Of a stretch of 64,000 bases of DNA, positions 6,674-23,544 are shown in pieces (position 1 is the stretch's first letter; each line of letters opens with the position of its first letter). The position numbers and the translations under genes are program-made. Source of the DNA: Thiothrix unzii (GTDB lineage Bacteria > Pseudomonadota > Gammaproteobacteria > Thiotrichales > Thiotrichaceae); the NCBI RefSeq assembly GCF_017901175.1, contig NZ_CP072793.1, forward strand, positions 3,410,001 to 3,474,000, given 5' to 3'. The notes beneath the pieces are model-generated. The model was not told the DNA's origin. It made no database searches and saw only the letters and a program-made list of their open reading frames with translations.

Positions 6674-8865
6674 AAAGCCGAGTTTGGCAATGGTTGCCGG
6701 TAGCATTGATTTTTCTGCTGCTGTTGGCCTCCTTGTCGCTGTTAAATATGGCGACCATTGGCCCTGAGAACGCCGCACGTTACGGCAACTGGCATTTTTA
6801 TCTGAGTGCGTTCATCTTATTGCTGTTAACTCTGATTATTTTAGGTAATTTGGTGCGGGTATTTTACCAATGGCGCACTCATCAGGCGGGTTCGCGTTTT
6901 ACCTTGCGCTTAATGAGCAGCTTTTTGGTATTGAGTTTATTGCCGGTGCTGGTGGTGTCATTGTTTTCGATCAATTTGATTGGGGAACGCATTGACCGCT
7001 GGTTTTCGGTATCGGTGGAACGCGCTTTGGACGACTCCATCGAATTAAGTGAAATCGCCTTGAATACCCGTAATCGCCAACATTTAGCCGAATTAGAACG
7101 TTTGAAACTGGCGATTGCTGGTTTGGATCGGCAGTCGATTGCACCGTTGTTGGAGCAGTTTTTGTTACTGGGGGCGCGGGAAGTATTTTTGCTGGATAAC
7201 TCGAACAATATGGTGGTGCTGGCGTTGGCGGATAACAGCGCGTTGATTCCACGTTTGCCGGATCGTGGTGTGTTTCAAGCCCTGAAGTTGCGTGATTATT
7301 ATGCCAAGTTGGAGCCGATTGGGACAAAAGTAGTGTCATCACGGGTAGCAATGCGGGTGCGTTACGGCCTTGAAAACCAGCAGGAAGGTATTTTAACCGC
7401 GTTGTTTCCGATTTCAGAGCGTGAGCAAAGTCTGGCAAATAGCGTGGGCAGTGCGCGTAATGAATACAAGCAACTGAATTTTCAACGTAATGCCACTAAA
7501 GATGCATTTCGGTTGATGATTGTGGTGATTATGGTGCTGACGGTGTTATTCGCGTTGTGGGCAGCTTTTATTTTCTCACGGCGGTTAACCCGCCCGGTAC
7601 GGACTTTAGTCGAAGGCACATTGGCGGTAGCGGCCGGTGATTTGCAAAAGAAATTGCCGGTGTCGGAAAAAGACGATTTCAGTTTGCTGGCGCGGTCGTT
7701 TAATACCATGACCAAACGCTTGTCGGATGCGCAACAAGAACGTGAGCAAACTCGTCGTCAACTTCAGCAGGAACACGATTATTTACACGTGGTGCTGGAA
7801 CATTTGTCATCAGGGGTTATTACGCTGGATGAAGCCGGGGTCATCCGGCGGGTGAATAGCGCGGCGGGCAGTATTTTGCGGCATCCCTTATTGGCGTATG
7901 TGGGCAAGCCCCTGGCTGAGGTGCTAAGTGATATGCCTGCGTTGCATCCGTTTTTGCAGGTGGTGCAGCCACGTTTGGCGGTGCAGGGCGGCGCGGAATG
8001 GCAGTCTGAAATTACCTTGACGACGGAAAGCGGGCGACAATTGCTGGTGTGTCGTGGTGCATCTTTGCCGGTGGATGCCTCGGAGCGGCGCGGTTCGGTG
8101 TTGGTGTTTGACGATGTGACCGATTTGATTCAGGCCGAACACGATGCAGCATGGGGCGAAGTGGCGCGGCGTTTGGCTCATGAAATCAAAAATCCGCTGA
8201 CCCCGATTCAACTTTCCGCTGAACGTTTAGCGCGTAAATTAGCCGGGGAATTGGGTGAAGACTCGGCGAGTTTCCTCAAGCGCATGACTAATACCATTGT
8301 GCAACAGGTCGATAACCTCAAGTTAATGGTGAATGCTTTCAGTGAGTATGCGCGTGCCCCCGCGTTGCATTTACAGCGCGTTGATTTAAACGTGTTGGTG
8401 CAGGAAGTAGTGGAGTTGTACCGGGTCAATGATTCCAAAGTGACACTGAAACTGGAGTTAGATAGCACGGTTCCGGTATTAAAACTCGATATGAACCGTA
8501 TTCGTCAATTACTGGTAAACCTGATTAAAAACGCCTTAGAAGCGTTGGAAGAAAACCCTGTTGCCAATCCTAGCGTTATCTTGCGCACTGCCTATCATGC
8601 GGATACTAAGCAGGTGTCGCTGTGCGTACACGATAACGGCCCCGGTATTCCGGCGGAATTATTGCCGCGCTTATTCGAGCCGTATGTCACCAGTAAACAC
8701 AAGGGTACGGGGCTGGGTTTGGCAATTGTGAAAAAGATTGTGGAAGAACACGCCGGACATCTGACCGCGCGTAACCATGAAAGCGGAGGTGCTATGCTTA
8801 GTATCAGGTTTTCAACAGGATCACTTGAGGACACCCTCACCCCAACCCCGAAGGAGCAGGGATAA
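6658..8865 (+). CDS. ntrY: NtrY-type membrane histidine kinase
   Basis: A 735-aa sensor kinase for the adjacent NtrX. Three N-terminal hydrophobic segments (about residues 10-31, 40-62 and 76-102), a sensory region, a further membrane helix (about 280-305), HAMP (about 305-360), PAS (about 375-490), then the kinase core. The phosphoacceptor is His508 in LAHEIKNPLTPI; the ATPase domain has NLIKNALEAL, DNGPGIP and GTGLGLAIV. GTG start at 6658, with GGAG ahead, inside the end of the DUF4390 gene. The last 12 residues (EDTLTPTPKEQG) fall after the kinase domain and resemble translated intergenic repeat (see findings). NtrYX systems act in nitrogen, redox or envelope control; the signal is not evident here. 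Confidence 0.9.
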   Translation: MADSLKSRVWQWLPVALIFLLLLASLSLLNMATIGPENAARYGNWHFYLSAFILLLLTLIILGNLVRVFYQWRTHQAGSRFTLRLMSSFLVLSLLPVLVVSLFSINLIGERIDRWFSVSVERALDDSIELSEIALNTRNRQHLAELERLKLAIAGLDRQSIAPLLEQFLLLGAREVFLLDNSNNMVVLALADNSALIPRLPDRGVFQALKLRDYYAKLEPIGTKVVSSRVAMRVRYGLENQQEGILTALFPISEREQSLANSVGSARNEYKQLNFQRNATKDAFRLMIVVIMVLTVLFALWAAFIFSRRLTRPVRTLVEGTLAVAAGDLQKKLPVSEKDDFSLLARSFNTMTKRLSDAQQEREQTRRQLQQEHDYLHVVLEHLSSGVITLDEAGVIRRVNSAAGSILRHPLLAYVGKPLAEVLSDMPALHPFLQVVQPRLAVQGGAEWQSEITLTTESGRQLLVCRGASLPVDASERRGSVLVFDDVTDLIQAEHDAAWGEVARRLAHEIKNPLTPIQLSAERLARKLAGELGEDSASFLKRMTNTIVQQVDNLKLMVNAFSEYARAPALHLQRVDLNVLVQEVVELYRVNDSKVTLKLELDSTVPVLKLDMNRIRQLLVNLIKNALEALEENPVANPSVILRTAYHADTKQVSLCVHDNGPGIPAELLPRLFEPYVTSKHKGTGLGLAIVKKIVEEHAGHLTARNHESGGAMLSIRFSTGSLEDTLTPTPKEQG

Positions 8866-18842: not shown

Positions 18843-19265
18843 CTATAAAAACCAATTTTCAACTTTCACGCCTTGGCATAATTTAAAATGATCCAAGTTA
18901 CGTGTAGCTACGACCAGATTATTAACAAATGCCACTGCTGCAATTTCACCGTCAGCCATTGGAATAGTGATGCCGTTATCACTTGCTCTAGCTGACTCCT
19001 TTCCAAGCCAGTTGGCGGCTTCCTTGTCGAAGGCGATGACTAATAAGCCACGATCTTCAAGTGTCTGCATATAGGCTTCCAACGCTTTACGTTTAGCGCA
19101 AGCCTCCATCTTTTCTATTCCATAGACAAGCTCACGCCACACCGTAGCGGAGGTGCAGACAGAGCCATCGTATTGCTCCAATCGTTCCATCACCCGGACG
19201 TTGGGTTGTTTTTTGGTTGGCTCAGAAATGATACAGGAGTCCAGTAGGTAGATTAGTCCTCCCAT
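18843..19265 (-). CDS. VapC-type PIN-domain toxin
   Basis: A 140-aa PIN-domain ribonuclease toxin. Acidic site residues appear in LLDSCIISE, VWRELVYGIEKM and MADGEIAAVA, followed by ATRNLDHF at the domain end. The start at 19265 gives the usual VapC N-terminus; an ATG 33 bases upstream within the antitoxin frame is less likely. It overlaps the antitoxin gene by 13 bases, typical of a type II toxin-antitoxin operon. First of three vapBC-like pairs in the window. Confidence 0.88.
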   Translation of the reverse strand: MGGLIYLLDSCIISEPTKKQPNVRVMERLEQYDGSVCTSATVWRELVYGIEKMEACAKRKALEAYMQTLEDRGLLVIAFDKEAANWLGKESARASDNGITIPMADGEIAAVAFVNNLVVATRNLDHFKLCQGVKVENWFL

Positions 19266-19528
19266 GAGAAATCCCTTGCTGGTTGGTTCATTCGCCAACT
19301 ACCGATCTCATCATCTGTTAAATCAACCCCACCGTACACATCTCGCCATTCCTTGATACCTAAGAACATGCTGCTTCTTGGTGCTCTCATGGCGTTGAAA
19401 CGTTCCATTGAGATCAATACAGCAACAGGCTTACCATGCCTCGTGAGGTGAATTTCCGCCCCATCTTCAGCTCTATGCACAAGCTGTGTCAGGTGACTTC
19501 TTGCTGCGGCAATTGTTGTTAGTTCCAT
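19253..19528 (-). CDS. Phd/YefM-type antitoxin
   Basis: A 91-aa antitoxin. The N-terminal half has the Phd/YefM fold (TTIAAARSHLTQLVHRAEDG, IHLTRHGKPVAVLISMERF), which binds DNA as a dimer; the C-terminal tail (about residues 55-91) would wrap the PIN toxin encoded immediately downstream. It should neutralise the toxin and repress the operon. The start at 19528 follows GAGGAAT. Confidence 0.87.
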   Translation of the reverse strand: MELTTIAAARSHLTQLVHRAEDGAEIHLTRHGKPVAVLISMERFNAMRAPRSSMFLGIKEWRDVYGGVDLTDDEIGSWRMNQPARDFSWED

Positions 19529-19612: not shown

Positions 19613-20479
19613 TCAGTATTTGGATGCGACCCGCAAGACATTGCCGTAATACAGCTCTTTACCCGTGGTGGTGCGCATCCATAATTCGCGGATGTCGCAT
19701 CGCTGCGGGGCAAAGTAGTGATGCGCCAAGCGGGTGATTTCTGCCAGACTGATACTCGGTGAATAGGTGTTGAGGATCAGAAAGCCGTTTTTCGCCAGTA
19801 ACCCTTGTGCGCCTTCGATCAGGGCTTCGAGCTTGTTTTCCAGCTTCCATTTTTCGCCTTTCGCGCCTAAACCCCATGCGGGTGGATCCATAATAATGCC
19901 TTGGTAATGCCGTCCGCGTTTGAGTTCGCGCTCGACAAATTTCAGCGCGTCTTCACGTATCCAGTGAATATCGTTTAAACCGCTGCGTTCCATATTGGTG
20001 TGCGCCCAGGTAATCAAGGCTTTTACCGAATCAACGTGCAAGGCTTCTGCCCCGGTTTGGCGTGCGCTACATGATGCAGCACCGGTATACGCAAACAGGT
20101 TGAGAAACCGCCCATCCGCCCGCAGATTTTCGCTGATGTAATCCCAGTTACTGCGCTGTTCGGGGAATAAACCTATGTGTTTAAAACGGGTTAATTCCAG
20201 TTGCAGGCGCAATTGACGGTAGCTGATTTCCCACGTTTTCGGCGCAGCATCGCGTAACGCTTGCCAAGTTCCCGCGTGTTTATCAGTTTCGATGAATTGC
20301 CAGTGGGCGAAGCGTTGCCATTCGCTGAAAGGCTTACCCGGTTTGAAATAGGCTTGCACCTCAGGGCGAATGGTAATGAGGTTGCCCCAGCGTTCCAGCT
20401 TGTTGCCGTTGCCTGCGTCAATGAGTTCGTAATCGTCCCAACCTTGGGTGTAAAGGCGGGGGTTGGTGGTGTCGGGCAT
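19613..20479 (-). CDS. Class I SAM-dependent methyltransferase, RlmI/RlmK (COG1092) type
   Basis: A 288-aa methyltransferase resembling the catalytic part of the RlmI/RlmKL rRNA cytosine or guanine methylases, without an N-terminal PUA or THUMP domain. The SAM-binding region is FLNLFAYTGAASCSARQTGA, an acidic residue follows in ALHVDSV, and the catalytic motif is IIMDPPAWGLG. The substrate is probably a nucleic acid base but cannot be assigned. It shares the short 20480-20553 gap with the divergent MNIO gene. Confidence 0.8.
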   Translation of the reverse strand: MPDTTNPRLYTQGWDDYELIDAGNGNKLERWGNLITIRPEVQAYFKPGKPFSEWQRFAHWQFIETDKHAGTWQALRDAAPKTWEISYRQLRLQLELTRFKHIGLFPEQRSNWDYISENLRADGRFLNLFAYTGAASCSARQTGAEALHVDSVKALITWAHTNMERSGLNDIHWIREDALKFVERELKRGRHYQGIIMDPPAWGLGAKGEKWKLENKLEALIEGAQGLLAKNGFLILNTYSPSISLAEITRLAHHYFAPQRCDIRELWMRTTTGKELYYGNVLRVASKY

Positions 20480-20553
20480 GGTTCGTTGTTACCTGTGTGC
20501 GCATCAGATGGAAATAGCTTATCATCAACAATGAGTAATAACCGAGTATAACC

Positions 20554-21387
20554 ATGCAACAATCACGTTTTCCTGTGTGTGGCGCGGGTTTAGGCTTGCG
20601 CCGCGATCATTTGGACGCGCTGGAGCAACAGGTTCCGGCGTGCATCAACTTCTTTGAAATTGCCCCGGAAAACTGGATTGGAACGGATCGCGTCAGTGCG
20701 CAACGTTTGCGTGCTTTGAGCGAGCGTTTTGGGTTTGTGTGCCACGGTTTGTCATTATCGCTGGGTGGTTTAAATCCACTGAATACCGCGTTGTTACGTG
20801 AAATCAGAACCTTGATGGATGCCCACGGGATTGCGTTGTACAGCGAGCATTTGTCTTGGTGTTCGGATCATGGGCAATTATACGATTTATTGCCGATCCC
20901 CTTTACTGAAGAAGCGGTTAAACATACCGTAGCGCGAATTCGCCAAGCGCAGGATGTATTGGGGCAGCGCATTGCGATTGAAAATGCCTCGTTTTATTTG
21001 CAAGCCCCAATCAGTGAAATGGATGAAGCCAGTTTTATTAATGCGGTGTTGAACGAGGCGGATTGTTGGCTGCATTTGGATGTGAATAATGTGTATGTGA
21101 ATAGCGTGAATCACGCTTATGACCCGCGTGAATTTTTGCGGCAGTTGCCTGCTGAACGGGTGGTTTATATGCACATGGCTGGGCATTACCAGCAAGAGCC
21201 GAATTTATTGATTGATACCCACGGTGAAACGGTGATTGCGCCGGTATGGGAGTTGCTGGATTTTACTTATCAACAGGTTGGGGTGTTACCCACCTTGTTG
21301 GAGCGCGATTACAATATTCCACCGTTAGCGGACTTAGTGCCGGAAGTGGAGCAAATCGCCAGCTTGCAAAGGAAATACGCGCCATGA
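20554..21387 (+). CDS. DUF692 (MNIO, BufB/HvfB-type) iron-dependent oxidative enzyme
   Basis: A 277-aa TIM-barrel protein of the DUF692 family (MNIO), multinuclear non-haem iron enzymes that modify cysteines of ribosomal peptides such as methanobactin and bufferins. Conserved metal-site segments are present: CHGLSLSLGG, SEHLSW, AIENASFYLQ, LHLDVNNVYVNSVNH, MHMAGH and TLLERD. It overlaps the next gene by 4 bases, and that gene encodes the DUF2063 partner, so this is an MbnB/HvfB-HvfC-like pair. The cysteine-rich DUF2282-type precursor that normally precedes such a pair is not present upstream, where only 74 bases separate it from a divergent gene. Confidence 0.9.
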   Translation: MQQSRFPVCGAGLGLRRDHLDALEQQVPACINFFEIAPENWIGTDRVSAQRLRALSERFGFVCHGLSLSLGGLNPLNTALLREIRTLMDAHGIALYSEHLSWCSDHGQLYDLLPIPFTEEAVKHTVARIRQAQDVLGQRIAIENASFYLQAPISEMDEASFINAVLNEADCWLHLDVNNVYVNSVNHAYDPREFLRQLPAERVVYMHMAGHYQQEPNLLIDTHGETVIAPVWELLDFTYQQVGVLPTLLERDYNIPPLADLVPEVEQIASLQRKYAP

Positions 21388-22142
21388 ATGCCACCGAACA
21401 TTACCAACGTACTTTTGCCGCGCACTTGCGTAACCCTGCACTGAATCCACCACCTGCGGGAGTAGACCCGCAGCGCATGGGGGTTTATGTGCGGCTGTTA
21501 TTCAATAATGTGGAAGATTTTCTCAGCGGGTGTTTCCCGGTATTGCGCAGTATTTTGGATAATGCACAGTGGCGCGAATTGGTGCGCCAGTTTTATGCGG
21601 AACATGCGTGCCAGTCACCGTATTTCCGGGAAATTCCGGCAGAATTTGTGCAATGGTTAACGGCGCGGCAAGCGGAGGTGCGTTTAATGGCGCAATTCCC
21701 GTTTTTGCTGGAATTAGCTCATTACGAATGGGTGGAAGTGCCATTATTGCTGGATGATACGCAAGTGGATTGGGCGGCGGTGAATAGTGATGGTGATTTG
21801 CTGGATGAACCATTGGTGTTAAACCCGGTGATGTTGCTGCAAAGTTACCAATATCCGGTGCAGACAATCGCGCCGGATACGTTGCCCAGTGAACCGCAAC
21901 CCACGCACTTACTGTTATTGCGCAATCGTGAAGGGAAAGTGGATTTTGTGGTGCTGAATGCGGTGACTGCACACTTGGTGCAATTGTTGGGGGAAACCAC
22001 AACTGCACGCGAAGCACTATTGCAATTGGCGCAGGCGTTGCAACATCCTGATCCTGAACAGTTATTGGGGTTCGGCATGACCATTTTGCAGCAGTTGCAT
22101 ACCCAGCAAGTCATCTTGGGAACTTCCGCCCATCGGCAATAA
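21384..22142 (+). CDS. DUF2063 (BufC/HvfC-type) partner protein
   Basis: A 252-aa protein of the DUF2063 family, the partner that recruits the precursor peptide to the MNIO enzyme. The N-terminal domain (about residues 1-95) has the recognisable pattern YQRTFAAHLRNP, RMGVYVRLLFNNVEDFLSGCFPVLR and REIPAEFVQWL. The second half (about 110-250) is a more variable domain. It overlaps the MNIO stop (ATGA), so the pair is coupled. The start at 21384 is preferred over longer in-frame options inside the MNIO gene. Confidence 0.88.
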   Translation: MNATEHYQRTFAAHLRNPALNPPPAGVDPQRMGVYVRLLFNNVEDFLSGCFPVLRSILDNAQWRELVRQFYAEHACQSPYFREIPAEFVQWLTARQAEVRLMAQFPFLLELAHYEWVEVPLLLDDTQVDWAAVNSDGDLLDEPLVLNPVMLLQSYQYPVQTIAPDTLPSEPQPTHLLLLRNREGKVDFVVLNAVTAHLVQLLGETTTAREALLQLAQALQHPDPEQLLGFGMTILQQLHTQQVILGTSAHRQ

Positions 22143-22227
22143 GTGCCCGTATTGGTAAACCTAATGTGCCTAAATGCGAAGAATGTGGTATTTAATCGCT
22201 TACAAATCCACTATCGAGGGCGACCCC

Positions 22228-22512
22228 ATGAACATATTCCGCACAAAGCTGTGTGTCAGCTTTGGACTGTTGACGACTAGCGTTTTATTCAGCGGCTGCA
22301 ATGCGATTGCACCCGTGAAAGCCTCACCGGCAACGGCTGCTACACCAGCTAAAGCATCTGATGTCACCGCCAGCAATACCCCAGTGAAAAGCATTGAGGA
22401 AATTGCAAACGAGGCGATGCAAAGTAAAGGGCAATTAAGCCGTGAGCAAATCGACGCATTGATCCGGGCTAATGCTAAGTGCAAGCCGAACGATCCGCGT
22501 TATAACAGTTAA
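22228..22512 (+). CDS. Small predicted lipoprotein downstream of the MNIO pair
   Basis: A 94-aa protein with a clear lipoprotein signal (LLTTSVLFSGC, lipidated Cys24), a low-complexity Ala/Thr/Pro linker, and a C-terminal part SIEEIANEAMQSKGQLSREQIDALIRANAKCKPNDPR. Apart from the lipobox and a signal-peptide cysteine, there is one cysteine, Cys86. It does not look like a DUF2282 bufferin precursor, which has several cysteines in repeated motifs. It starts 85 bases after the DUF2063 gene and ends 6 bases before the AraC gene. Whether it belongs with either is open. Confidence 0.65.
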   Translation: MNIFRTKLCVSFGLLTTSVLFSGCNAIAPVKASPATAATPAKASDVTASNTPVKSIEEIANEAMQSKGQLSREQIDALIRANAKCKPNDPRYNS

Positions 22513-22518
22513 ACCGTT

Positions 22519-23544
22519 ATGGATACCCTTGCGCTGTTATTGATTGGTTTTTCGTTGTTCAGTGCGTTAATTACCGCGCGGACACACTTTCAATGTGCAA
22601 ATTACAAAGGGCAATTGCTCTCGCAAAGCATGGGTATCCTGTTATTGGTGGTATTGGCGGGGCTGCAAGCGGCGCATTTTGCGTATTTGCAGCACGCCTC
22701 GCTGTTTATTCATAGTCCGATGTACGCGGTGTTGCTGTTTGCGGTGGCTCCGACGTTTTACTTGTTTAGCTCCCCGTTATTACACGCAGAAACCACCCCA
22801 CGTTGGTGGCATTTACTGCATTTCGTACCGCTATTAATCGCACCTTGGTTACCGTTTGCTTATGCATTGCCGCTGGCTTTCGCGCTGGGAGCGGGTTATT
22901 TGCTGTGGCTGGCGCGTAGTGTGTATGCCTTGCGGGCGCAGCGTAGTCAGTTTCGACAGGAATTGTGGGCGTTAGCTGGCGTGTTACTGCTGGCGTTACT
23001 GGTATTGCTGTTGGGGCTGGGCTTGCCTTGGTTGTCTGAGCGGGTCTTTTTCAGTGTGTATGCCAGTGCGATTGGCGGTGCATTTTTGCTAATCAGTATG
23101 GCTTTATACACCATGCCGCAGTTACCCACCGAAGTGGTGGAAGCTGCACGTGAAACTTACGCCGTTTCCACCTTGAGCCAAGTTGATTGCGAACAGATGC
23201 TAACCCGGCTGGGTAATTTAATGGATCAGGAACAGGTATACCAAAACCCTGATCTGGATTTGGCGTTATTGGCAGAACGCATGAAGCTTTCCCCGCATCA
23301 ACTATCAGAGCTGATCAATACCCGCATTGGCAAAGGCTTTTCGCGTTACATCCGTGAATATCGGGTGGAAGCTGCCGAAGATTTGCTGCTGGATAAACCG
23401 TCGATGCCGGTATTATCGGTGGGGCTTGAAGTCGGCTTTTCTTCGCAGTCGAATTTCTATGATGCGTTTCGCGAACTGTCTGGGATGACACCGGGACAGT
23501 TTCGGAAGGTACATCAGGTGTTGGCGCAGGGGAGTGGAGACTGA
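22519..23544 (+). CDS. AraC-family regulator with multi-span membrane N-terminus
   Basis: A 341-aa protein with about seven hydrophobic segments in residues 1-200 and an AraC-type double helix-turn-helix at about residues 235-335 (LALLAERMKLSPHQLSELINTRIGKGFSRYIREYRVEAAEDLL, then VGLEVGFSSQSNFYDAFRELSGMTPGQFRK). This layout is known for membrane-bound AraC regulators that sense a lipid, envelope or quorum-type signal; the ligand is unknown. It follows the lipoprotein gene by 6 bases, so the two may be co-transcribed. Confidence 0.85.
   Translation: MDTLALLLIGFSLFSALITARTHFQCANYKGQLLSQSMGILLLVVLAGLQAAHFAYLQHASLFIHSPMYAVLLFAVAPTFYLFSSPLLHAETTPRWWHLLHFVPLLIAPWLPFAYALPLAFALGAGYLLWLARSVYALRAQRSQFRQELWALAGVLLLALLVLLLGLGLPWLSERVFFSVYASAIGGAFLLISMALYTMPQLPTEVVEAARETYAVSTLSQVDCEQMLTRLGNLMDQEQVYQNPDLDLALLAERMKLSPHQLSELINTRIGKGFSRYIREYRVEAAEDLLLDKPSMPVLSVGLEVGFSSQSNFYDAFRELSGMTPGQFRKVHQVLAQGSGD

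Follow-up and report, generated by a model that had tools for sequence, protein, structure and literature searches.

The window, the whole 64,000-nucleotide stretch of Thiothrix unzii DNA that was analyzed, carries the genes hvfB and hvfC, followed by a small lipoprotein gene (F6) and an AraC-family regulator gene (Table 1). HvfB is a multinuclear iron-dependent oxidase (MNIO), and HvfC is the partner that recognizes the precursor; the known precursor of HvfB is HvfA, with EGKCG motifs, and not a DUF2282 protein. The two open reading frames (ORFs) overlap by four bases, and hvfB starts at position C2:3430554 of the contig. Both are full length and free of internal stops, with products 78.2% and 63.5% identical, respectively, to those of the congeneric genome G014. 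hvfB and a methyltransferase gene are divergent, separated by 74 bases.

Table 1. Positions of the genes and sites discussed (window coordinates unless a contig or locus label is given)
Feature	Position	Strand	Basis or remark
SAM-dependent methyltransferase gene, rearranged side, common to G003	19613-20479	-	
74-base gap before hvfB, site of the operon break	20480-20553		
hvfB, MNIO (DUF692) RiPP maturase, 277 aa	20554-21387	+	NF003818 HvfB match
hvfC, DUF2063 and NGO1945_C partner, 252 aa	21384-22142	+	ATG 21384; NF050145, PF09836, PF22106
F6, small lipoprotein, 94 aa	22228-22512	+	Best start ATG 22228; mechanical ORF from 22174
AraC-family regulator, usual neighbor of the lipoprotein gene	22519-23544	+	PF12833, gene order
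hvfA, putative precursor, 172 residues	C2:3491585-3492103 = L034:17585-18103	-	NF050137, EF-hand matches
GKCGA/GSCGA lipoproteins of other Thiothrix genomes	L041:10410-10688, L036:8279-8566, L038:8713-8988, L043:10822-11103, L048:11066-11377		

Pfam assigned PF05114 to the hvfB product (345.8 bits) and both PF09836 (95 bits) and PF22106, NGO1945_C (86.5 bits), to the hvfC product. Against the NCBIfam models, the hvfB product scored 402.9 bits for HvfB (NF003818; cut-off, 360) and the hvfC product 290.6 bits for HvfC (NF050145; cut-off, 142), which places both in these families. The BufB model gave the hvfB product 274.6 bits, below its cut-off of 310, and the locus does not classify as a bufferin cluster. 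The top solved structure for HvfB by sequence score was 3bww, a DUF692 protein, followed by 8hci and the MbnB structures with much weaker scores. The genome contains a single MNIO gene. Judged by these family models, the pair is an ordinary HvfB–HvfC pair of a known system, and what is new here is a member with a split cluster.

Since HvfB scored above its cut-off and BufB below, the precursor to be expected is HvfA with EGKCG motifs rather than DUF2282. An earlier, sequence-only reading of this DNA had described a coupled DUF692 and DUF2063 pair, with only 74 bases upstream and no DUF2282-type gene. All three observations were borne out, the last one throughout the genome: the DUF2282 search returned no match in the whole T. 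unzii genome and did detect the family in the control genome, that of Caulobacter vibrioides. However, DUF2282 is the wrong precursor for the HvfB subtype, so its absence says little, and it was rejected as the expected precursor.

A Cys-rich antisense ORF inside hvfC (21845-22114, minus strand) was set aside as a coding-strand shadow, judged on position alone. On the far side of the methyltransferase gene, overlapping genes for a Phd/YefM-family antitoxin and a PIN-domain, VapC-like toxin occupy 18843-19528 (minus strand), the VapC models scoring below their NCBIfam cut-offs; the segment 18825-19620 is unmatched in the equivalent region of the sister genome G003.

A distant hvfA gene

The relatives compared were 15 congeneric Thiothrix genomes (G001 to G015), which with T. 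unzii make 16 genus genomes. NF050137 alone detected HvfA in 3 of the 16, and profile A2, built from ten of the 16, detected it in 14. Both searches found one intact HvfA-family precursor ORF in T. unzii. This gene, hvfA, lies on the same contig as hvfB, 61 kb from it and 17.6 kb outside the window, and its product scored 22.1 bits against the NF050137 HvfA model (cut-off, 19.5; margin, 2.6 bits). The EGKCG pattern had two matches in the genome, both in the hvfA ORF, and none in the backward control. EF-hand models matched the product in the profile scan, five of its six cysteines stand directly before glycine, and its start, read by eye, looks signal-peptide-like. The precursor expected of an hvf cluster is therefore present in the same genome, although adjacency to hvfB, which is usual and not strictly defining, is missing. 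The EF-hand segment also had a weak match to the lanmodulin model (28.8 bits; cut-off, 135), so a metal different from copper may bind to the EF-hand half of HvfA.

The genome search that the sequence-only reading had proposed thus yielded no DUF2282 gene and one EGKCG-type HvfA. Its proposal that the substrate is encoded elsewhere holds, with an intact hvfA 61 kb away; its other suggestion, an unusual peptide, does not, because this combination of EGKCG motifs and EF-hands is a described type in the available text of PMC12452194.

The HvfA/HvfBC system, its 5-thiooxazole product, and the EGKCG|EF-hand precursor type are described in the available portions of PMC12452194, PMC13419390, and PMC13097082. 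With the hvf (oxazolin) cluster of nontypeable Haemophilus influenzae (HvfA, HvfB, HvfC, and HvfX), the T. unzii genes share the HvfB and HvfC families and an HvfA-family precursor. They differ from it in the 61-kb distance to the precursor, in having no DoxX match among the five genes scanned with Pfam at the hvfBC locus, and in a precursor that combines EF-hands with scattered Cys-Gly instead of the three AEGKCGEGKCG units given for Haemophilus HvfA in the accessible part of PMC13419390. The Buf_EGKCG|EF-hand_5 precursors, as presented in the available text of PMC12452194, have the same EGKCG-type segment joined to EF-hands, whereas the precursor gene here is not beside the MNIO gene; the same text already mentions stand-alone precursor genes. 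According to the accessible sections of PMC13097082, the fontiphorin and captophorin clusters (PME1) combine the same MNIO and DUF2063 partner with a Lys-Cys type precursor and yield a 5-thiooxazole, recognizable by a change of about −4 Da per modified Cys and by absorbance near 305 nm; their precursor architecture differs from the one here.

A stable hairpin (−22.1 kcal/mol; z, −3.92) with a weak T-run follows the hvfA stop and would suit a gene standing alone. Terminator-like sites around hvfA were not in excess (1, against a shuffle mean of 2.1). A sigma-70 scan, whose yield of 3 was below the shuffle mean of 4.5, placed no promoter-like site in the 74-base gap upstream of hvfB and none before hvfA; it says little and does not tell the two genes apart. 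A GSCGA-repeat lipoprotein was rejected as a precursor in T. unzii, as a profile search of the genome found none, and a loose GSCGA DNA pattern gave 21 scattered matches, one of them inside hvfA, against 34 in the backward control, with no repeat-like cluster.

Gene order in Thiothrix and the operon break

HvfB is present at 76 to 81% identity in 14 of the 15 relatives (exception, G005) and an EF-hand hvfA in 13 (exceptions, G005 and G006). In 11 of the 15, hvfB directly follows hvfA, with a 3-base gap in 10 (G001, G004, G007, G008, and G010 to G015) and a 71-base gap in G009, where the hvfB start is as mechanically called. One protease-like gene in opposite orientation lies between the two in G002, and they are far apart in G003. 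G006 has hvfB and lacks an EF-hand hvfA, with a divergent GSCGA-repeat lipoprotein gene and a DoxX gene nearby. G005 has no EF-hand hvfA, and no HvfB-like match there exceeds 42% identity; its best MNIO passes the BufB model (373.9 bits, cut-off 310) and falls short of the HvfB model (270 bits, cut-off 360), and a second MNIO-like match is weaker, at 31% identity. Ribonucleotide reductase, followed divergently by hvfA-hvfB-hvfC-lipoprotein-AraC, is the order in 10 of the 15, in some with an extra gene inside. On a wider set, the best 80 of 262 relatives, 64 of 80 loci had, within the fetched flanks, an ORF carrying two or more EGKCG-like motifs, a count with no chance control. The remaining 16 lack such an ORF, yet one of them (L134, the G011 record) has an adjacent hvfA, so the motif count misses some precursors.

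In T. unzii, hvfA has kept ribonucleotide reductase as its neighbor, and hvfBC has kept the lipoprotein and AraC genes, which places the break between hvfA and hvfB. G003 has the same two junctions: at the first, the thioredoxin-like gene, hvfA, and ribonucleotide reductase form a segment of 5280 bases that is 88% identical, and at the second, the methyltransferase gene, 98 to 99% identical, lies beside the lipoprotein-AraC side. Judged by these junctions, a rearrangement common to T. unzii and G003 broke the hvfA–hvfB linkage. A simple 61-kb inversion would fit the orientations, but it predicts that the methyltransferase and thioredoxin-like genes are adjacent in relatives; among G001 to G010 the two lie far apart on one contig in G001, G004, G005, G006, and G010. 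Only a rearrangement is therefore claimed. The neighborhood comparison thus found the very arrangement that the sequence-only reading had named in advance as speaking against it: a standard precursor that adjoins the enzymes in most relatives (the 11 of 15 above) and that a rearrangement has moved away from them here.

At this site (L106, around 8333-8535), hvfBC has since disappeared from G003 except for 17 bases at the start of hvfB and about 22 at the end of hvfC. G003 has a second HvfB-type pair elsewhere, 95.0% and 87.3% identical to that of G006 and 78.7% and 66.1% identical to that of T. unzii. The hvfA genes of T. unzii and G003 encode products with 93.2% amino acid identity (161 codons; dN/dS, 0.07; no internal stops), and few protein changes have occurred since the split. 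Because G003 has kept its orphan hvfA although the native hvfBC was deleted, the low dN/dS is no proof of dependence on the native pair.

Lipoproteins with GKCGA/GSCGA motifs lie beside hvfBC in five Thiothrix genomes (Table 1), three between hvfC and F6 and two divergently before hvfB; they are possibly lipid-anchored HvfA-like precursors. The one scanned (L043) had no Pfam or NCBIfam match. In both genomes with the divergent arrangement (G006, locus L036; G003, locus L041), a second MNIO gene lies 7 to 8 kb away, and the one near the G003 hvfBC pair is BufB-type. The GSCGA lipoprotein profile also matches strongly in G001, G007, G010, and G011, where a single stop interrupts each match.

Presumed modification in trans and the alternatives

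We consider it very probable (roughly 90%) that the pair is HvfBC of an operon split by the rearrangement shared with G003, with the HvfA encoded 61 kb away presumably modified in trans. The hvfA-hvfB-hvfC operon has been broken between its first two genes, and HvfA, with its signal-peptide-like start, Cys-Gly motifs, and EF-hands, would still be modified across that distance. By analogy with the hvf and fon systems, HvfBC would oxidize HvfA cysteines to 5-thiooxazoles, and the exported product would bind copper; we infer this chemistry and copper binding for T. unzii from that likeness.

Alternatively, separation from its precursor and original promoter could have left the pair a relic that is on its way to being lost, as the hvfBC remnants at the same site in G003 might suggest. 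With hvfB and hvfC full length, uninterrupted, and still similar to their G014 counterparts, and with hvfA intact as well, this is unlikely.

A substrate, or second substrate, could also be sought in F6, to which the sequence-only reading had linked the pair, noting a single cysteine outside its signal and lipobox. That cysteine is residue 85 and is invariant in 11 of 11 aligned homologs. F6 begins 85 bases after hvfC, follows hvfBC in 12 of the 16 genus genomes, and, in a search of 40 genomes with a profile derived from 11 of these 16, was found in 16 of 16 genus genomes, T. unzii included, and in none of 24 others. The link itself is not supported, because F6 also occurs in genomes that lack hvfBC next to it. 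F6 stays at the site without hvfBC in G003, G005, and G006 and lies far from hvfABC in G009, with the cysteine kept in all four; in G005 it persists though the best MNIO is BufB. Moreover, 10 of the 12 genomes with F6 after hvfBC have hvfA directly before hvfB. The F6 cysteine is followed by K, R, S, or T and then proline, unlike the Cys-Gly of HvfA, and, according to the available portion of PMC13097082, FonBC did not process those tested substrates in which the cysteine precedes a charged residue. Modification of F6 by HvfBC at this C-terminal cysteine is thus highly improbable. Given its persistence without a neighboring hvfBC, F6 is probably no substrate; its distribution suggests a conserved genus neighbor paired with the AraC gene and probably outside the maturation system.

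That the pair is a bufferin-type maturase that has lost its DUF2282-type precursor can practically be dismissed: MNIO and DUF2063 proteins occur in bufferin clusters too and the BufB model alignment spans nearly the whole hvfB product, but only the HvfB model passes its cut-off, the genome has no DUF2282 gene, and hvfA adjoins hvfB in most congeneric genomes.

In addition to the reading of HvfBC acting in trans, we put forward a tentative and rather doubtful extension, that precursor and enzymes are exchangeable modules: G003 would mature its orphan EF-hand HvfA with the second, other-lineage hvfBC, which stands beside a GSCGA-repeat lipoprotein precursor. If so, the G003 precursor would have survived the loss of its native enzyme by relying on one from another lineage.

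The T. unzii locus clearly illustrates how an MNIO pair can look precursor-less by neighborhood while a standard precursor is encoded elsewhere in the genome, and mining restricted to neighborhoods will therefore count false orphans. Thiothrix offers a natural series of an intact operon, a split operon, an enzyme deletion, and a second hvfBC, which is suited to testing the action of HvfBC in trans.
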